From contig JAJPIS010000029.1 in assembly GCA_021324635.1 (NCBI GenBank), positions 1 to 45,749 of the forward strand: a DNA stretch of 45,749 bases, written 5' to 3'. Every line of letters begins with the position of its first letter. Positions within the stretch are counted from its first letter, which is position 1. The stretch is from Gemmatimonadota bacterium. GTDB taxonomy: Bacteria > Gemmatimonadota > Gemmatimonadetes > Gemmatimonadales > Gemmatimonadaceae. Both the position numbers and the translations under genes were made by a program. Positions 36,094 through 45,749 of the stretch are shown piece after piece. The notes under the pieces were generated by a model. The model searched no databases and had not been told where the DNA came from. It saw only the letters and a list, made by a program, of their open reading frames with translations.

Positions 36094-36178
<85 letters not shown>

Positions 36179-36284: not shown

Positions 36285-38723
36285 TCACTCGGAGCGCATC
36301 GCGATGATGGGGTCGACGCGCGCGGCGCGACGGGCGGGGAGCCAGGAGGCGATTGCGCCGACGGCGCCGAAGGCGACGCACACGACCGCGAACGTCCACG
36401 GGTCGAGCGGTTCGACGCCGAACAAGAGCCCGCGGATGACACGCGTGAGGAAGATCGCGCCCAGAATGCCGGCCGCCAGGCCGGGGCCGATCATGAACAC
36501 GCCGCGGCGAACCACGAGGGTGACGACATCGCTGGATCGCGCCCCCAGCGCGATGCGGACGCCGAAGTCCCGTGTCTGCTGGCTCACGGCATACGACACG
36601 ACCCCGTAGACGCCAAGCGTGGCGAGCAGCAGCGCGACGCTCGCAAAGCCCGTGAGCAACATCGTGTACAGCCGCGACTGTGACATCGAGTCGGCCACGG
36701 CCGCATTCATGGTGCCCAGCTCGAACGTCGGTACGTCCGGGTCGACCGATGCGACCGCGCGCCGGATCTCGCCCTCGAGTCCCGCCGGCGGAAGGGCGGT
36801 GCGAAGGACGAACGTCGCGCCGAGCGGGAACCGTCGGTACGGGAGGAATGTCGCCGGCTCCGGTGCCGCCGCGAGCGAAGTGTAATACGCGTTGCGGACG
36901 ACGCCGATGATCTCCCCGCTCGGGTGCACGGTGCTGTCTGCCGACCCGCTGTGCCAGAACGCGTACGTGAGGTGCTTCCCGACGGGGTCCTGCCCCGGGA
37001 AGTAGCGGTCCGCGAGCGCCTGGTTGATCACGAGCACCCGGGCGGCATCGGTCCGGTTCTCGCCGTCGGTGAAGGTGCGACCGCTCACGACCGTCATCCC
37101 CATGGTGCGAAAGAAGTCCGGGGAGACCGGGCGAAGCCGGGACTGGGGCTCGGTGCCCGGTGTGGGCGGCGGGGCGCCATCGATCGTGAAGAACGTCGAC
37201 GGACCGAACTGCTCCGGGTCGAACGGGCGGTTGGCGGCCACGGCCACGCTCTGCACACCCGGGAGTGCCGCCAGCCCCGCCTGCACGCGATCCGCGAACT
37301 GGTTCCTCGGCGGGTCGGCATCGTACTTCTGACCGCTCAGGGCGACATCGAACACCACGAGATGATCGGGCCTGAAGCCCGGGTCGACCTCGGCCAGGCG
37401 CTGGAAGCTGCGGATCAGGAGCCCGGCGCCCACGAGCAGCACGGTGCCGAGCGCGAGCTCCGCGAACACGAGCACGGATCGCGTGCGCCCGGCTCCCGGG
37501 GTGCCGCCGGCCCTGCCCGACCGGAGTGTGCGCGCGACGTCCCAGCTCGAGGCGTGGAGCGCGGGGAGGAGGCCGACGACGAGACCCGTGGCGACGGCCA
37601 GCGCCGCCGAGAAGGCGAGCACTCGTACATCGATCCCCACCTCCTGTGTGCGCGGGAGCGCGAGCGTCCCGCCCGCCGTCAGCACACGCACGACGAGCAC
37701 GGCGAGGAGCGTGCCCAGCAACGCCCCCCCCAGGGCGATGAGCGTGCTCTCGGCAAAGGATTGGCCGAGCAGTTGGCGGCGCGCGGCGCCCAGCGCGGTG
37801 CGGACGGCCACTTCGGGGGCCCGCGAAGCGGCACGAACGAGCAGGAGGTTGGCGACGTTCGCGCAGGCGATCAACAGTACGAACATCACGGCGCCGAGCA
37901 TCGCCCAGAGCGGACGCTCGACGTCGCCCACGACCGCTTGCCGAAGCGGAACGGCCGCCACGCCGATGCCTGCGTCTTGGGGGAACGCCTGAGCGATGCG
38001 GCGCGCGACCGTGCCCAGATCGCGCTGCGCGCTCGCGAGCGTGACCCCGTCGCGGAGCCGGGCGATCGCAACGGCGTTGTGATTGCCACGGCCGATGTCG
38101 CCGATCTCCCAGTCCTCCCAGACCGCCGGGTACCAGAGCTCGGCGTTGTCGGGGAAGGTGAAGCGAGGTGGCGCGACACCCACCACGACATACGGCTTGT
38201 CGTCGAGCGTGACCTGGGTTCCGACGATCCGCGGGTCGGCTCCGAAATCGCGCCGCCACGCGGCGTCGGACAGCACAACGACTCTGGTCGCCGTCCGTGC
38301 ATCCTCGCCGGAAGCAAACATTCGGCCGAGCTGTGCGCGCGTGCCCAGCACGGAAAAGAACTCGGCGCCCACCCGAGCCGCGTTGACGCGCAGTGGCGGA
38401 GCCGTGGGACGAAGCAGGTTGAGGCTCTGCCGACTCTCGATGGCAACGACGGTCGTGAAGCTATGCGTTTGGTCGCGGTAATCGATCAGGTCCTGCGGCG
38501 CGAGATCGATCCTCCCTCGCCGCGGATCGGTTCCGTGCAAGTACACGAGTCGGCTCGGCCGCTCGAAGCCGAGTGGCTTGAGGAGCACACCGTTCACGAG
38601 GCTGAAGGCCGCGGTGCCGGCGCCGATCGCCAGAGCGAGGGTCGCGAGCGCGATCAGCGTGAACGCCGGCGTTCGCGCCAGTCGGCGCGCGGCGTACCGC
38701 AGCTCCTGGATTGCCGTCTCCAT
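36285..38723 (-). CDS. ADOP-family duplicated ABC permease (MacB/FtsX-like)
   Basis: An 812-residue inner-membrane protein with two FtsX-type permease units in one chain and no ATPase domain, the layout called acidobacterial duplicated orphan permease (ADOP). It begins METAIQELRYAARRLARTPA, a typical ADOP start, and then a first membrane helix (FTLIALATLALAIGAGTAAF). A MacB-type periplasmic core follows (VSPDFFRTMGMTVVSGRTF is the second copy). Further helix groups lie near residues 275-390 and 680-800, and it ends with PARRAARVDPIIAMRSE. No partner ATPase is adjacent, so its substrate and energy source are unknown; family members are often found as many paralogues. The protein looks complete. 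Confidence 0.93.
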   Translation of the reverse strand: METAIQELRYAARRLARTPAFTLIALATLALAIGAGTAAFSLVNGVLLKPLGFERPSRLVYLHGTDPRRGRIDLAPQDLIDYRDQTHSFTTVVAIESRQSLNLLRPTAPPLRVNAARVGAEFFSVLGTRAQLGRMFASGEDARTATRVVVLSDAAWRRDFGADPRIVGTQVTLDDKPYVVVGVAPPRFTFPDNAELWYPAVWEDWEIGDIGRGNHNAVAIARLRDGVTLASAQRDLGTVARRIAQAFPQDAGIGVAAVPLRQAVVGDVERPLWAMLGAVMFVLLIACANVANLLLVRAASRAPEVAVRTALGAARRQLLGQSFAESTLIALGGALLGTLLAVLVVRVLTAGGTLALPRTQEVGIDVRVLAFSAALAVATGLVVGLLPALHASSWDVARTLRSGRAGGTPGAGRTRSVLVFAELALGTVLLVGAGLLIRSFQRLAEVDPGFRPDHLVVFDVALSGQKYDADPPRNQFADRVQAGLAALPGVQSVAVAANRPFDPEQFGPSTFFTIDGAPPPTPGTEPQSRLRPVSPDFFRTMGMTVVSGRTFTDGENRTDAARVLVINQALADRYFPGQDPVGKHLTYAFWHSGSADSTVHPSGEIIGVVRNAYYTSLAAAPEPATFLPYRRFPLGATFVLRTALPPAGLEGEIRRAVASVDPDVPTFELGTMNAAVADSMSQSRLYTMLLTGFASVALLLATLGVYGVVSYAVSQQTRDFGVRIALGARSSDVVTLVVRRGVFMIGPGLAAGILGAIFLTRVIRGLLFGVEPLDPWTFAVVCVAFGAVGAIASWLPARRAARVDPIIAMRSE

Positions 38724-39079: not shown

Positions 39080-40063
39080 TCAGTACCGGCCGAGGTCGTG
39101 GCCCACCACGACGCGCCCGCCGAACCCGCCGCTCCGGACGCCGGCGAGCAGCGTGCTGTCGGACGCCCCGGCGCGGATGATATGCGTCAGGATGAGCAGG
39201 CCGGGCCGAGCGTCGGCGGCGAGGTGGCCGAGCTCCACGTCGGATGTGTGGAAGCTGTGCATGTAGCGCGGCCAGTCGCGGCCGCCGGGGCGCGACTCGG
39301 GCCGCAGGGTCGCGGCCGCGTAGACCTCGTGCACGAGCACGTCCGCGCCCGCCGCCGCCCGCGCCAAGGCGGCCGACGGCCGGGTATCCCCGGAGATGAC
39401 CACCACTCGGCCCGGCGTATCGAACCGGTACCCGAACGACCAGGGCCAGCTTCCGTGCGATACTGCGATCGCCGTGACCCGCACGCCCGCGCTGTCGTAG
39501 ACCATGCCGGGCCGGACTTCGTGCACCGACACGGCGAGACCCGCCGCGCGCTCGTGCTCGAGGCCGTCGGTCCGCACGCGAATGTCCTCGCGGTACCCGG
39601 CCAGAATGTGATTGGTCATCCAGCGGAGTCCGGGCGGCCCGAAGACGGCGAGCGGTCGGGAGCGGCCCATGACCCATGACGTCAGGATCAGGTCGGGGTA
39701 CCCGAGTGTGTGATCACTGTGCAGGTGCGTGATGAACGTCGCCTCGGGCCCGTTGATCGGCAGGCCCGCGGCCGCGAGCTGACGCTCGACTCCCGACCCC
39801 GCATCCACGAGGAAGAGGCGTTTGCCGACGACGACCGCCGTCGCCGGACCGGACGCCGACGGGTCGGGCCGGGGCATCCCGGTACCGAGGAGGACCACGA
39901 CGGTGCTGTCCGACGATTTTCCGAGCCCGCGGGCGGGCCCGGCCACGCCGGATTCAGCCGGAGGGGTGATGAGGGCGAGCGCAGCGGTGGCACGGCCGAT
40001 CCACCATCGCGCCCGCGCGATCGGCGCCCGGGCCCGGGTCGTCGGAGGGCGAAGGCGCCGCAC
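39080..40063 (-). CDS. exported metallo-beta-lactamase-fold hydrolase
   Basis: A zinc-dependent hydrolase of the MBL superfamily, 327 residues. The N-terminus from the GTG at 40063 is arginine-rich and then hydrophobic (WWIGRATAALALITPPAESG), resembling an export signal, so it probably acts in the periplasm or outside. Metal motifs are THLHSDHTLGYPD (H-x-H-x-D-H), ISGDTRPS, VLVHEVYAAA and the late LILTHII. The arrangement resembles RNase Z/arylsulfatase-type members rather than true beta-lactamases; the substrate is not predictable. No ATG is in frame nearer the signal and the GTG has no clear ribosome site. It begins 8 bp after susD and should be co-transcribed with it. Confidence 0.85.
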   Translation of the reverse strand: MRRLRPPTTRARAPIARARWWIGRATAALALITPPAESGVAGPARGLGKSSDSTVVVLLGTGMPRPDPSASGPATAVVVGKRLFLVDAGSGVERQLAAAGLPINGPEATFITHLHSDHTLGYPDLILTSWVMGRSRPLAVFGPPGLRWMTNHILAGYREDIRVRTDGLEHERAAGLAVSVHEVRPGMVYDSAGVRVTAIAVSHGSWPWSFGYRFDTPGRVVVISGDTRPSAALARAAAGADVLVHEVYAAATLRPESRPGGRDWPRYMHSFHTSDVELGHLAADARPGLLILTHIIRAGASDSTLLAGVRSGGFGGRVVVGHDLGRY

Positions 40064-40071
40064 GCGAGCCG

Positions 40072-41616
40072 CTACGGACAGGACACGACACCATTCCCGT
40101 GGCGGCCATCGATCTCCGACTGCGGGACCGGAAGGGTCGTGGTGTGCAGATCGGTCACCGGCCCTCCGAGTGCGGCTTCGGCATTCGCGATGCCGGTCGA
40201 GTCCGGCCCTGGTCCGCGGGCCACCCACGTGGTGTCGGCCACCGAGGCCATGCCGTACATCCGGATCGCGATGGTCCGGTCGGTGCTCGCCTCGAAGGCG
40301 GTGGAGATCCGCTGCTCGCGGAGCAGGGCATCGCGCACGTGGATGTAGTCGGCCGGGATCGTGAGGGGCGTCGAGAACCCACCCGCTTGCTGGTGGACCG
40401 TGTTGATGAGGGCCGCGGCGGCAGCATATTGCGCGAGCCCGAGCTGGATCTGCGCGTCGACGAGGGTCAGCTCCTCGTTGCGCACGATCGGGACCGGGGC
40501 CGATGGCGACGCATAGTAGGCAAAGACAAACGGCGATGCAACGGCGGCGAACGCCTTCTCCTGCACGGGATTCGGGTTCAGCGCGAACTTCGCGCGCCAC
40601 CGGGCGTCGGTGGTATCGACGTCGACCACGAAATCCCACATCACCGGGAACGTGCCGAGGAATTCGCTGACGGGATTGCGGATGTCGCCCGACTGGCCGC
40701 TCCAGACATGGTATACCGCGAACGGGTCGTTCAGCGCGAACGTCCCGAGCGACGGGGGCGTGATCGCCGCCGGGTCGAACAGGGCCGACGCTTGCAGGGC
40801 ACTGTCGGCCCGGAGGAGGGCCGGGCGGTCGGGCGCGCCGGCGGTCGTGGGGGTCGGTCCCGCCCCCGCGCCCCGCGCGATCGCATACGCCAGTTCCAGT
40901 CCGGCCTTGCCGGCCAGGGCGCGGTTGAAGGCCGCGAACGAGCCCGGGCTCGTACTCGGGCCGCCGAAGCCGCCCACGGCGGCGAATCCCGACGGCAGGA
41001 TGACGGGCATCGGCGTCGCACCGGCCGCGCCGAGCGCCACGTTGGCCGAATCGAGTAGCGCGACGATGTACCGCCACACGTCCGCGTTGCACAGGATGGG
41101 GGCGGGCGTGGTGCTCGTGATCGAGGCCACCGGCACGCCGGTCGAATCGTGGCTCTCGGCGATCATCATGAACTGCAGCGCCTTCATGGTCTGCACGACG
41201 CCGGTGAGCTCCGCCACCTGCGCGGGTGTGTACGCGGGCCGCACCTGCGCGATCGAGGCCAGGATGGTATTGGCCAGCTTGGCGTTCGAGAACTCCTGGT
41301 CCCAGAGCGAGAAGAGCTGATCCTGGGGCAGGATCGGCACCAGCCCCAACCCCTGGGTCACCCAGCGGGGCTCGGTGTTCGTGAAGTCGCCGGCATCGCG
41401 CGCGAACGCCGACATGGCGAGGATCGACGAGCCCACGTCGATGCGGGCCGCGAAGAACAGGCCCGTGACCGCGTTCTGGAGTCCCGTCGGGGTCCTGGCG
41501 ATCGCGGTCGGGGCGGTGAGGAACGGCACGTTGGTGTCGGTACACCCGAGGGCCGCGGCACAGATCGCAGGCAGCGCGACGCGTCGGGCGTGGCGGACGA
41601 GCGCAGGGTACCCCAT
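40072..41616 (-). CDS. SusD/RagB-family nutrient-binding outer-membrane lipoprotein
   Basis: Surface lipoprotein that caps a SusC channel and binds its ligand. The ATG at 41616 overlaps the susC stop (TGATG), so translation is coupled. A signal peptide ends at the lipobox AALGC. The protein shows the SusD pattern: an N-terminal TPR-like helical part (YTPAQVAELTGVVQTMKALQ, LALAGKAGLELAYAIARGAG-like helices) and a C-terminal end with LTLVDAQIQLGLAQYAAAAAL and RDALLREQRISTAFEASTDR, the RAB-type helix conserved in the family. It is 514 residues. The ligand is unknown; no glycosidase or peptidase neighbour points to one. Confidence 0.87.
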   Translation of the reverse strand: MGYPALVRHARRVALPAICAAALGCTDTNVPFLTAPTAIARTPTGLQNAVTGLFFAARIDVGSSILAMSAFARDAGDFTNTEPRWVTQGLGLVPILPQDQLFSLWDQEFSNAKLANTILASIAQVRPAYTPAQVAELTGVVQTMKALQFMMIAESHDSTGVPVASITSTTPAPILCNADVWRYIVALLDSANVALGAAGATPMPVILPSGFAAVGGFGGPSTSPGSFAAFNRALAGKAGLELAYAIARGAGAGPTPTTAGAPDRPALLRADSALQASALFDPAAITPPSLGTFALNDPFAVYHVWSGQSGDIRNPVSEFLGTFPVMWDFVVDVDTTDARWRAKFALNPNPVQEKAFAAVASPFVFAYYASPSAPVPIVRNEELTLVDAQIQLGLAQYAAAAALINTVHQQAGGFSTPLTIPADYIHVRDALLREQRISTAFEASTDRTIAIRMYGMASVADTTWVARGPGPDSTGIANAEAALGGPVTDLHTTTLPVPQSEIDGRHGNGVVSCP

Positions 41617-44600
41617 CAGAAGCTCAGGTCCAGGGAGAGGAAGTAGCTGCGTGCCGGCGGATATGGCGTGACATCCTGGCCCCGTGCGACCTGCTGCGGA
41701 CCGATATACGTGACCTCGGGGTCCAGCCCCAGGTATCCGGTCCACATGAGGAGGTTGCGGCCAGTCAATGACAGGGCAGCGTTCGAGATCCGCCCGCCGG
41801 TCCATTTCAGCCATCCGATCGGGACGGTGTAGCGCAGCGCGACCTCGCGCAGCTTGACGAAGCCTCCGGACTCGAGGTAGGGCGTGCCGTTGGCGTTCAA
41901 CTGGGCGATGCGGCGGCTGGTGAGCGTCGTGTCGGCGAGCAGCCCCGGGCCGATGTCGTAGAGGAAATCCGTGAAGTTGGAGGTGTTCCCGCCGCGGTTC
42001 CACTGCACGACCGCGGAGCCGCGGACGGGGCCGAGGGTGACTTCGTTCGCGAAGTTCATGACGAACGACGGCTGGCCGTCGCCGACCTGCACGGGCTGTC
42101 CGTCGGCGCCCGGCCGGTTGCCGACGATCTGCGAGACCGACCGGCCCACCTGGATCCGGTACGTCCCGTACAGCGCCGTGCCGTTGAAGTTGAAGTTCGG
42201 CACCGGCAGGCTGTTCACCACGCTGTAGTTGCGGTAGAAGCTCGTCGTGGTCACCCACTGGACGCTCCGGGTCTGGATCGGCGTCGCCTCCAGCCGGACT
42301 TCGATCCCCTGATTCGTGAACTCGCCGCCGTTGATCCACTGCAAGTCGTACCCCAGCGACGGCGCGGGCGCGGCCAGGAGCAGCAAGTCCGTGAGCCGCT
42401 TCTGATAGACGGTGACGCCGAGCACGGCCCGGGAGCCGAGCAGGGTCGCGTCCAGGCCAGTCTCGATCTCCGTCTCGCGCTCCGGCTTGACGGCGGAATC
42501 GCCGAGGAGGAGCGGCAGATACGCGCCGACACCGCCATCGGACACGCCGATGTTGAACGGCGTGTACTTGACGCCGTAGTCCGGCTGCGTTCCCGATTGA
42601 CCGTAGGCGGCGCGGAGCTTGAGCTCATCGACGCCGCGGAGGAGCGACGGAAACCGATACGAGCCGGAAAAGCGCGTGTACGGGTAGTACTTCCCGATCC
42701 TGCCGTCGTTCGTCGTCCGCTCGGCAGTGACCCCGCCCGTCAGGGCGGCACGCTCCCCGAAGAGCAGGAGTTGCTCCTGCGCGTAGACCGACTGATCCCT
42801 GGAGTCGGTCGCGTCGTAGCCGACCGTCTGGATGGCACCGACGGTCGGGTTGTTGGTGCCGGCGAGCAGCGCGCGGCCGGCGGCCAGCGGCTGGTCGAGG
42901 GTCCGTCGTTCCCGGACGTAGCCGATCGAGGTCGTCGCGTCCAGTTGCCGGGACGCCGCATAGTGGTGCACGACGTTGAGTGAGTAGTTGATGTGCGTCG
43001 TCTTCCCGTACTGGTCCTGCGCCACACCCGGCAGCCCGGTCGGGATCTGCTGTTCGACCTGGAGGTCCGGCGGGGCGTAGAACTTGTCCTGCTGAGTCGT
43101 GAGGTCGGTGCCGCCGATCAGCGTCACCCGCAGCGCCTGGTTGGCCGACTGATATGGGCGCCAGTCGACGGTTCCACCGCCCACGAACCGGTTGACGTAC
43201 TCGGGGGTCTGGATCTCGACGGCATCGGCGAACGGATTCGCGGGCCCGAAGGGATTGATCGGCCAGCTTCCGTCCGGCCGGCGGCCGAGGGTCACGAACT
43301 GCGGCGTGTACGAGAAGACATCGTACGGGCTGATGCCGATGTTGTCGTTGCCGGTGACGCCACGGCGCGTGGTCGAGTTCGCGTACAGCAGGTTGGCGCT
43401 CACCGACAGGGCGCCACCCAGTCCCTGCGTGACATTCGAGCGGACGGTCTGCTTGTTGTAGCCGGTGTTCGTCAGGATGCCGTTGTCGTACTTGGTCATC
43501 CCGGACAGGAAGTACTGCGTGTGCCCGGACGTGCCGCCGACGCTCAGATCGGACTGATAGGACGCCTCGCGATTGCCGAAGAGCTGCGACTGGTAGTCCT
43601 GCGGCCCCGCGTAGGTCGTCGCGATGAAGCCCGAGTCGACGCCGAAGGACCGGCCCCACGCGATCGCGCTCGCCAGGGTCGGGAACGTCCGCAGACCGTA
43701 TCGGTTCGCGAGCGCGAAGTGTCCGACGCTCTGGGAGGCGGACCACCTGGCCGCCCCGTTCGAGCCCCGCTTGGTCGTGATGATGATCACGCCGGACGAC
43801 GCCTTCGACCCGTAGATGGCCGACGCCGACGCGCCCTTCAGCACTTCGATGCTCTCGATGTCCGAGGGGTTCAGATCCGCGACCCGATTGGGGCTGTTGT
43901 CCTGCTGGCTCGGGCCGACGCCACCCTCCGAATGGCTGATCGTATTGAGCCCGCTGTTGACGGTCCCGTTGTTGATCATGATGCCGTCGACGACGTACAA
44001 CGGCTGCGCGTTGGCGTAGATCGAGGTGATGCCGCGAACCTGGATCTGCATCCCGCCCCCGGGCGCGCCGCCGTTGTTCTGCTCGATGAGCGCACCCGGG
44101 ATCTTCCCCTGGAGCGCGTTCTCGACCGTCGGGGCGGGTACCCGCGACACGTCCTCGGCGCCGAGGACCGCCACGTCGTTCGCGGCGTTGGCCGCGGAGA
44201 TGCTCGTCACCACGCCGGTCACGACCATGGCGTCCAGCCGGAGCACGTCCTTCTCGAGGCTCACGACGATCTCGCTCGTGTCGGCGGGTATCGGGACGGT
44301 CGCTTGGAGGTACCCGATCCGGCGGACCGTGAGCGTGGTCGCCCCCGGCGGGAGCACGAGTGCGAAGGTGCCGCTGTCGCTGCTCGCCGTGGTCACGGCC
44401 GTGCCGGCAACGAGCACCTGGGCGGCCGCCACCGGCCCGCCGGTGGCGCGGTCCAGCACGCGGCCACGCGCGTGGCGCACGGCGGGCTGGTGGCGGGTCA
44501 CCTCCGGCACGAGCAGCACCTGGTCGCCGCCGACCACCTCCACATCGATCCGCGAACCCATGAGGATGTCCGTCAGTACCGCCCCGACGCTGATGTCATC

Positions 44601-44891
44601 GGCCTGGAGTGAGACGTGCGCGGTGAGGTCCACGACGCGGGGACTGTAGGCGATGTGCAGCCCGGCCTGGGCGGCCAGGGTGTCGAGGGCCTCGCCCACG
44701 GTGCCGGGCGCCAGGTGCATCGCTACCCGTCGCTCGAGCACCGCGGCCCCGCGCGCATCGATCCGCTTCCGGCCGCCGCTGGACCGGGTGAAGAACGCGG
44801 GGCCGGTGCCCGCGTGGTCCGCCAGCCGGGTGGGTTGTTGCGCGCCGAGGGCGGAGCCGGTGAGGAGAACGATGAGTACGAGGGGACGCAT
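41616..44891 (-). CDS. SusC/RagA-family TonB-dependent transporter with STN domain
   Basis: Outer-membrane channel that imports a ligand delivered by SusD, powered by TonB. The ATG at 44891 has AGGAG 5 nt upstream and a signal peptide (MRPLVLIVLLTGSALGAQQP). Residues of about 55-125 form a secretin/TonB N-terminal (STN) domain (GEALDTLAAQAGLHIAYSPR), the part that signals to FecR-type regulators. A carboxypeptidase-like beta-sandwich follows (RVLDRATGGPVAAAQVLVAG), then a TonB-box-like LDAMVVTG and the plug (VQGI-type region GGGMQIQVRGITSIYANAQP, then ESIEVLKGASASAIYGSKAS). The 1091-residue barrel ends in SYFLSLDLSF with the expected terminal Phe. It lies 7 bp after fecR. Confidence 0.94.
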   Translation of the reverse strand: MRPLVLIVLLTGSALGAQQPTRLADHAGTGPAFFTRSSGGRKRIDARGAAVLERRVAMHLAPGTVGEALDTLAAQAGLHIAYSPRVVDLTAHVSLQADDISVGAVLTDILMGSRIDVEVVGGDQVLLVPEVTRHQPAVRHARGRVLDRATGGPVAAAQVLVAGTAVTTASSDSGTFALVLPPGATTLTVRRIGYLQATVPIPADTSEIVVSLEKDVLRLDAMVVTGVVTSISAANAANDVAVLGAEDVSRVPAPTVENALQGKIPGALIEQNNGGAPGGGMQIQVRGITSIYANAQPLYVVDGIMINNGTVNSGLNTISHSEGGVGPSQQDNSPNRVADLNPSDIESIEVLKGASASAIYGSKASSGVIIITTKRGSNGAARWSASQSVGHFALANRYGLRTFPTLASAIAWGRSFGVDSGFIATTYAGPQDYQSQLFGNREASYQSDLSVGGTSGHTQYFLSGMTKYDNGILTNTGYNKQTVRSNVTQGLGGALSVSANLLYANSTTRRGVTGNDNIGISPYDVFSYTPQFVTLGRRPDGSWPINPFGPANPFADAVEIQTPEYVNRFVGGGTVDWRPYQSANQALRVTLIGGTDLTTQQDKFYAPPDLQVEQQIPTGLPGVAQDQYGKTTHINYSLNVVHHYAASRQLDATTSIGYVRERRTLDQPLAAGRALLAGTNNPTVGAIQTVGYDATDSRDQSVYAQEQLLLFGERAALTGGVTAERTTNDGRIGKYYPYTRFSGSYRFPSLLRGVDELKLRAAYGQSGTQPDYGVKYTPFNIGVSDGGVGAYLPLLLGDSAVKPERETEIETGLDATLLGSRAVLGVTVYQKRLTDLLLLAAPAPSLGYDLQWINGGEFTNQGIEVRLEATPIQTRSVQWVTTTSFYRNYSVVNSLPVPNFNFNGTALYGTYRIQVGRSVSQIVGNRPGADGQPVQVGDGQPSFVMNFANEVTLGPVRGSAVVQWNRGGNTSNFTDFLYDIGPGLLADTTLTSRRIAQLNANGTPYLESGGFVKLREVALRYTVPIGWLKWTGGRISNAALSLTGRNLLMWTGYLGLDPEVTYIGPQQVARGQDVTPYPPARSYFLSLDLSF

Positions 44892-44898
44892 GATGCTC

Positions 44899-45749
44899 CT
44901 ACGGCCGGGAGCCGGTTGGAACGATGAGGAGGGTCGATCCGCGGCGTGCAACTCGTGCATCGACCGCGCGGGCGAGAACGAGTGCGACATCGTCGAGGCG
45001 CTCATCCTCGAACGACGCGGTCACCGGAACGGATCCGAGCGACGGATCGCCGACGGCGAGATCGGCGTCGTACCACCGGGCGACGGCCGTGACGACATCG
45101 CGCAGTGGGGTCGCCCGGAACACCAGTCGCCCGCCCGTCCAGGCGCTGAGTTCCGTCACGTCGGCGCCGTGCGCAACCGCGAGGACGGTGTCGCGAGTCA
45201 CGGTCGCCAGGTCGCCGGCTCCGAGGGACACCGGTCGGGCCCGCGACGTCGCGGGGGCGGCGAGCGAGACGCGTCCGTCGCGCACGGCCACCGCGACCGT
45301 GCGGTCGCCGGCGTACGCGCGGACATCGAAGCTCGTGCCGACGTCGGTCGCGACCACGTTCCCGGCCCGGACGGTGAACGGCGCCCGTGCGTCGTGCACG
45401 ACGGAGAAGAACGCCTCTCCCTCGAGCGCGACGGTCCGGTGCCCGGCATCGAAGGTCGACGGGACGGTGAGGCGGGTCGCGGGCGCGAGCGCGACGCGCG
45501 TCCCGTCGCGGAGGAGCACACTCGCGCGCTCGCCGCGCGAGGTGACGAACGTCCGTCCAGGAACCGGTGCGACCGGTCGGGAGGTGGAGAGGGTGACGCC
45601 GAGGGCGACGGCGAGGACGATGCCGGCCGCCAGCGCTGCCTGCCGCCAGATCCCCGGGGCACCCGGCGCCGCCATCGGACGGCGCGCAGGACGCTGGCGG
45701 GCGGGGCGCACGGCCATGGGGAGCGACGGCACCGAGGGCGGCACCGAGG
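44899..45749 (-). CDS. FecR-family anti-sigma/regulatory protein, 5' end cut by window
   Basis: Inner-membrane sensor that relays a signal from the STN domain of a TonB-dependent transporter to an ECF sigma factor. A single membrane helix (QAALAAGIVLAVALGVTLST) is followed by the periplasmic FecR domain (GERASVLLRDGTRVALAPAT, then VALEGEAFFSVVHDARAPFT, then VVATDVGTSFDVRAYAGDRT). A C-terminal STN-like region (RDVVTAVARWYDADLAVGDP) ends the protein. The usual cytoplasmic N-terminal part would lie beyond the window edge, so the gene is probably incomplete; an in-frame GTG at 45744 and an ATG at 45717 are not convincing starts. The matching sigma factor is expected just outside. Confidence 0.88.
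   Translation of the reverse strand, partial: SVPPSVPSLPMAVRPARQRPARRPMAAPGAPGIWRQAALAAGIVLAVALGVTLSTSRPVAPVPGRTFVTSRGERASVLLRDGTRVALAPATRLTVPSTFDAGHRTVALEGEAFFSVVHDARAPFTVRAGNVVATDVGTSFDVRAYAGDRTVAVAVRDGRVSLAAPATSRARPVSLGAGDLATVTRDTVLAVAHGADVTELSAWTGGRLVFRATPLRDVVTAVARWYDADLAVGDPSLGSVPVTASFEDERLDDVALVLARAVDARVARRGSTLLIVPTGSRP

Follow-up and report, generated by a model that had tools for sequence, protein, structure and literature searches.

In SusCD/FecR systems, SusD and SusC bind and import a ligand, and the STN domain of SusC signals via FecR to an extracytoplasmic function (ECF) sigma factor. A row of such genes, ending in a gene for a metallo-beta-lactamase (MBL)-fold hydrolase, was found at one end of a 45,749-nucleotide stretch of DNA from a Gemmatimonadota bacterium (GCA_021324635.1, contig JAJPIS010000029.1), hereafter called the window. 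Importers of this type have been described next to enzymes that act on phosphoesters: in Flavobacterium, phosphate depletion induces SusCD complexes that accompany periplasmic phosphodiesterases (PMC8115612). Secreted enzymes of the Lactamase_B_2 group are also described, and two of them, Mblp01 and Mblp02, act on the majority of the phosphorylated substrates tried (PMC6584368). We propose, with a probability of about 0.5, that the four genes of the window represent a FecR-regulated SusCD importer operon to which a gene for a periplasmic hydrolase of the phosphoesterase type was added.

The window spans contig C35 from end to end; the genome comprises 4.09 Mb in 127 contigs. On its minus strand, the genes are arranged in the order FecR, SusC, SusD, and MBL-fold hydrolase. 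The FecR gene (44899..45747), which encodes an anti-sigma/sigma-regulator, is truncated at its 5' end where the contig stops; as the window comprises all of this contig, the FecR N-terminus and any sigma gene lie outside it. The FecR stop codon ends at 44899 and the ATG of SusC (41616..44891, 1091 amino acids) is at 44891, leaving a gap of 7 bp; base 41616 is common to the SusC stop codon and the ATG of SusD (40072..41616, 514 amino acids) in a TGATG overlap; and the SusD stop codon ends at 40072, 8 bp before the GTG at 40063 of the MBL gene (39080..40063, 327 amino acids), which ends at 39080. The tight four-gene coupling claimed in the initial annotation of the sequence is thus borne out by the start and stop coordinates, and so is its remark that the MBL protein is the only enzyme, since no other enzyme gene lies between FecR and the next gene. 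The latter (36285..38723, minus strand) encodes a MacB/FtsX-type permease (PF12704, 120 bits; PF02687, 76.8 bits) and is a fifth co-directional gene, 356 bp behind the MBL gene; it is a neighbour, not clearly in the operon.

The regulator and importer could be assigned to known families. FecR matched PF04773 (62.7 bits) and, at its C-terminus, PF16344 (33.3 bits), both over the cut-off. SusC is a SusC/RagA-type TonB-dependent transporter (TIGR04056, 395.4 bits, cut-off 368.25; signature TIGR04057, 56.5 bits, cut-off 46.2) whose carboxypeptidase-regulatory (CarboxypepD_reg) and plug (Plug) domains also scored over the cut-off. The initial annotation had ascribed an STN domain to this protein. 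Its N-terminal extension reached 22.1 bits with STN, below the Pfam cut-off of 28.4, and the scores of other FecR-linked SusC proteins were 24.0 bits in L114 of the same genome, also below the cut-off, and 29.8 bits, which passes, in L213 of congener G131. When the extension was aligned with those of other SusC proteins, the score was 224 for L114, 95 and 88 for L213 and L214, and 25–54 for 19 other SusC proteins, three of which (L117–L119) are cut at the N-terminus. On this comparison, the extension shares clear homology with its counterpart in L114, a complete sigma-FecR-SusC-SusD locus with its contig ending behind SusD; what stands of the annotation is therefore an STN-like extension, not a formal STN match. 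SusD had no Pfam match even at an E value of 10. A profile built from it and 18 relatives matched solved SusD structures (3qnk, 8e-11; 3kez, 1.2e-8; 3jq1, 4.1e-8), and its lipobox-like leader, read by eye, ends in Cys25, which is conserved in at least 90% of the 19 profile sequences. Based on the profile, the lipobox cysteine, and the position behind SusC, it is assigned to the SusD superfamily as a surface lipoprotein, an assignment confirmed by profile only.

To compare the MBL protein, 59 places with homologues were opened in genomes of the family, and a genome collection was scanned with one short conserved pattern, which gave 589 coding places, the best 80 of which were kept. Alignments drew on 25 of the 59 family homologues (A1) and 54 of the 80 collection loci (A3). 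The MBL protein matched PF12706 with 66.2 bits (cut-off 27). Seven residues, H113, H115, D117, H118, H203, D226, and H294, which we take to be the ligands of a dinuclear metal site, show no variation across 55 sequences, nor across a second set of 26 that partly overlaps the first. The same holds for Glu246 and His272, whereas His245 does not vary among the 26 and is kept in at least 90% of the 55. An AlphaFold2 model had a mean predicted local distance difference test (pLDDT) score of 88.5, with values under 50 for the majority of residues 1 to 46. Its nearest solved structures were the P. atlantica arylsulfatase 8gyg (Z 33.6), PNGM-1 (Z 32.7), and RNase Z (Z 31.8).

The initial annotation had named a housekeeping RNase Z-like enzyme as one outcome that would refute its reading; this outcome did not occur. 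The protein scored 100.5 bits with the tRNase Z model TIGR02651 (cut-off 292.95), and only 13 residues lie between its Tyr212 and Asp226; at this position L092, the RNase Z of the same genome, has a long arm, presumably the exosite. This separate, true RNase Z on contig C87 reached 326 bits with the same cut-off, and the window protein was rejected as the housekeeping RNase Z. It also scored below the cut-off of the GntH model NF041257 (138.5 vs. 333), and a literature search for GntH returned no paper with both words of the query. The MBL protein is a member of an exosite-less RNase Z-like family that is widespread and probably secreted and has no fixed neighbours.

In the proposed operon, SusD and SusC would capture a ligand and import it across the outer membrane. 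FecR may receive the signal of ligand binding from the STN-like domain of SusC and pass it on to an ECF sigma factor encoded off the contig, which would switch the operon on. To cleave the ligand after import, the last gene would contribute a dinuclear metal hydrolase, probably periplasmic, from the short RNase Z-like group of MBL proteins, and the importer would derive from a SusCD family expanded in the genus, whose members lie beside different enzymes or none. The initial annotation left the ligand unnamed, and the substrate is indeed not readable from the sequence; the enzyme would most likely be a broad phosphodiesterase or phosphomonoesterase. Phosphoester chemistry is our tentative first choice because the RNase Z-like His-Glu pair is retained, because phosphoesters are hydrolysed by secreted enzymes broadly of this type (PMC6584368), and because SusCD pairs with phosphodiesterases are reported (PMC8115612). 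Some chemistry other than those named here would be unlikely, cleavage of a sulfate ester rather more so, and cleavage of a lactone or of a lactam or other amide improbable in equal degree.

Several observations weigh against this reading, beginning with export. The MBL start is uncertain: the gene caller preferred 39946 over the GTG at 40063, and a leaderless product of a shorter start is possible. In most family homologues, inspection by eye shows a leader resembling a signal peptide, and a leader hydropathy index exceeded 1.6 in 58 of the 59. The index of the window protein is 1.46, below all 59 homologues (median 2.36). The index itself is crude, as it takes in as many as 60 residues ahead of the catalytic domain and may reach past the true start, and unspecific, as at least six presumably cytosolic gene products of the window also exceeded 1.6. 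The enzyme had initially been called secreted; this is likely for the family, and for the window copy, the lowest of all, export is likely but not secure on the evidence of its leader.

The chemistry and the regulation are subject to similar doubts. The nearest folds include an arylsulfatase and a beta-lactamase, and the 8gyg/PNGM-1 fold also serves lactams and sulfates, as structure titles and, for the activity of PNGM-1, PMC6882493 indicate; the fold does not, then, fix the chemistry. No phosphate-related gene was recognised beside the operon. The sigma factor for the window FecR was not found in a search of the genome's sigma genes, which gave 22 places, of which those on C126, C9, and C4 were assessed. 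At the place on C126, an intact gene follows in mid-contig and there is no broken FecR at a contig end, and the places on C9 and C4 belong to L114 and L216; these were rejected as the missing partner. In congener G131, a sigma-FecR pair (L215:8766-10602, contig C12) encodes a FecR 48% identical to that of the window, with no SusC in the stretch opened.

The genomic neighbourhoods of the MBL family speak against the proposed operon as well. The window, the 59 family-genome places, and the 80 collection places made 140 MBL loci, and dropping 15 duplicates left 125 distinct ones, 89 with at least 5 kb of upstream sequence and 36 with less than 5 kb. The gene caller missed the MBL gene in L036, L043, L073, L078, L084, L087, L163, L200, and L201, all of which were recovered by a six-frame scan. 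Linkage was counted by SusC because the SusD profile misses distant SusD proteins, for example those of L037 and L038. A same-strand SusC gene directly upstream of MBL was present in three of the 125 loci, namely the window, L037, and L038; neither SusC nor SusD was seen directly upstream in the other 122, or in 86 when the count is limited to the 89 loci offering 5 kb or more. L037 and L038 come from one genus, g7, and represent a separate pairing because their SusC is only 26% identical to that of the window, which makes about two independent cases. In L033 and L034, SusC lies on the same strand about 4.4 kb downstream of MBL, with two other genes intervening that fall in clusters containing an amidohydrolase-type and an S9-type protein, and the remaining SusC matches near MBL loci are farther away or on the opposite strand. 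By hand estimate (not computed), 16 SusC genes over the cut-off in an assumed 3,700 genes would give about 0.5 chance cases in 125 loci; on this rough estimate, about two independent cases do not clearly exceed the chance expectation. The genome survey suggested in the initial annotation thus revealed no regular SusC-SusD-MBL co-occurrence, and a conserved SusCD-MBL module was rejected.

As SusCD is so seldom found upstream, the MBL protein may be functionally unrelated to the importer. The strongest rival explanation, somewhat less probable than the operon proposed here, is that the two are chance neighbours which came to share an operon by recent insertion or rearrangement next to a tRNA-Leu gene, the MBL protein having a separate task of its own. 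The lack of fixed neighbours in the MBL family agrees with this. Homologues with 57–70% identity, taken from the best 80 of the 589 collection places, occur in bins of Bacteroidota, Ignavibacteriota, Acidobacteriota, Verrucomicrobiota, Myxococcota, and Pseudomonadota; such bins may contain foreign contigs, and one named strain, Yeosuana aromativorans JCM 12862, carries a homologue with 63% identity. No neighbour shared between the phyla was seen by eye. In a tree of 75 rows, the closest sister was from the Gemmatimonadales bin L136 (support 99/90), which shows no adjoining SusCD within the 0.9 kb of upstream sequence that could be inspected. Neighbours are shared within small sets of loci, for instance a transporter-type group in L144, L150, L152, and L156. 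In some genera of the family (L046, L048, L050, L052, L055, and L058), the MBL gene lies among GMC oxidoreductase, Gluconate_2-dh3, xylose-isomerase-like, Gfo/Idh, and nucleoside-symporter clusters, as named from cluster representatives, which suggests a sugar- or nucleoside-related role in those genera.

The closest relatives of the importer also fit a chance encounter. The best matches of the window SusD in two congeners were 64% (G131) and 62% (G132) identical, and trees joined the window pair with the pairs of these genomes (SusD, 99/96; SusC, 100/99). These pairs have no adjacent MBL or FecR gene and no STN-like extension, and are followed by a PQQ-type propeller protein (by Pfam in G131, by eye in G132). 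Neither congener had a strong MBL match among the 12 candidates scored in each (best 2.5e-10 and 1.0e-11), and the weak matches are, judged by their strength, probably their RNase Z. FecR-linked control and the MBL gene are special to the window copy among the three genomes of the genus. The self-contained FecR-SusC-SusD-MBL circuit of the initial annotation is not supported, as the observation that it named as refuting, the absence of MBL beside orthologous SusCD pairs, was made in both congeners.

Gene order likewise breaks at the proposed insertion site. A smpB gene and tRNA-Leu(CAG) (36094..36177, plus strand) are common to both congeners, the tRNA being the last shared position; past it, the window has permease-MBL-SusD-SusC-FecR and the congeners share another gene set. 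It is possible that the stretch beyond tRNA-Leu is a genomic island. With at most one mismatch allowed, the genome contains a single copy of the tRNA-Leu 3' end, and no flanking repeat of it was found. The two next genes of the congeners, named by eye as encoding a 187-amino acid protein and an Rrf2-like protein, were not found in the genome by a search without positive control, which shows little. By eye, positions 1-36000 of the window hold core genome (UvrB, SecA, CarB, RpoA, and ribosomal protein genes among others) and a polysaccharide-type gene group. Two points argue for a functional connection instead of chance, namely the position of the MBL gene 8 bp behind SusD on the same strand and the second, apparently independent SusC-SusD-MBL arrangement in genus g7.

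The phosphoesterase-type importer operon must also be compared with the other SusCD pairs of the genome. At least seven SusD paralogues are 50–56% identical to the window SusD (8 of 28 candidates scored), and the window pair is one of at least eight close SusCD paralogues in this one genome, together with L113–L119, which lie beside different enzymes or none. These paralogues are a lineage-specific expansion. Each genome search scored only its top candidates, which makes the paralogue numbers minimum values and weak absences less than certain. Seventeen SusCD places were opened, comprising all 16 over the SusC cut-off and the partial C81; the C80 fragment and sub-threshold places were left out, except C4:65242 (L216).

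Five of the 17 places adjoin or lie near peptidase- or esterase-type enzymes: S15/CocE in L113, L116, and L233; S9 in L116 and L232; S12 in L113 and L233; M55 in L113; and M13 in L231. Other neighbours are a multicopper oxidase (L117), a short-chain dehydrogenase (L119), an acyl-homoserine lactone (AHL)-lactonase-like MBL (L115), and the window MBL. The L115 gene (L115:12965-13879, contig C78) encodes an unrelated MBL-fold protein upstream of SusCD (SusC, L115:9759-12728) whose nearest relatives are AHL lactonases, far below their cut-offs. With such neighbours, the SusCD proteins of the genus might take up peptides or amide/ester compounds, the window MBL being an unusual amide- or ester-cleaving partner. 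We consider this unlikely: no RNase Z-like MBL with peptidase activity turned up in the searches made, and seven of the 17 places (L118 and L225–L230) have no obvious degradative enzyme directly adjoining on the same strand; the neighbours of these seven were mostly identified by eye, and at several of the 17 places the contig ends. Least probable is a sulfate-ester system with the MBL protein as a type III arylsulfatase, since 8gyg, though its best PDB match by both structure and sequence, is only 28% identical and has SEMM where the HEVY of the window protein keeps the RNase Z-like His-Glu pair, and no sulfate-related neighbour was recognised.

A broader form of the proposed operon can be imagined, in which the expanded SusCD of the genus serves as a standard chassis re-paired with periplasmic hydrolases, and the FecR/STN-controlled window copy is a phytate- or nucleotide-type phosphoester scavenging system, PUS-like outside Bacteroidota and arisen on its own. 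At present, we regard this as speculative and rather improbable.

Gemmatimonadota SusCD importers seem to be little described in the open papers covered here, of which three bring the phylum together with SusC and SusD and name each protein once, and no SusCD-MBL system of this phylum was found among the matches listed, judged by titles and the starts of abstracts. The locus provides a concrete test case for enzyme-partner swapping by SusCD pairs. In addition, the MBL family is widespread across many phyla and probably secreted, with no described function found, and is directly assayable.

In comparison with known systems, the locus resembles sigma-FecR-SusC(STN)-SusD loci, of which L114 has the full set with sigma, in gene order, FecR, and the STN-like extension; it differs in that the contig ends before any sigma gene, STN is below the cut-off, and an MBL gene follows. 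It shares with PusCD of Flavobacterium a SusCD pair beside a presumed periplasmic hydrolase able to cut phosphoesters, although the phosphodiesterases there belong to other families, pf00149 and pf16670 (PMC8115612). Mblp01 and Mblp02 (Lactamase_B_2, 312 and 355 amino acids, with a signal peptide and an RNase Z-like model) can be likened to the window MBL by description, not by sequence, and SusCD is not mentioned with them in the available text of PMC6584368. 8gyg and PNGM-1 have the same fold over about 280 residues (Z 32–34) with 26–28% identity. The housekeeping RNase Z on C87 shares the MBL fold, the His-x-His-x-Asp-His-type motif, and the His-Glu pair, and has a long arm between the GY and GDT motifs, unlike the armless window protein. 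The locus thus joins parts of known kinds in a lineage-specific way and is no new module; it is mostly ordinary.

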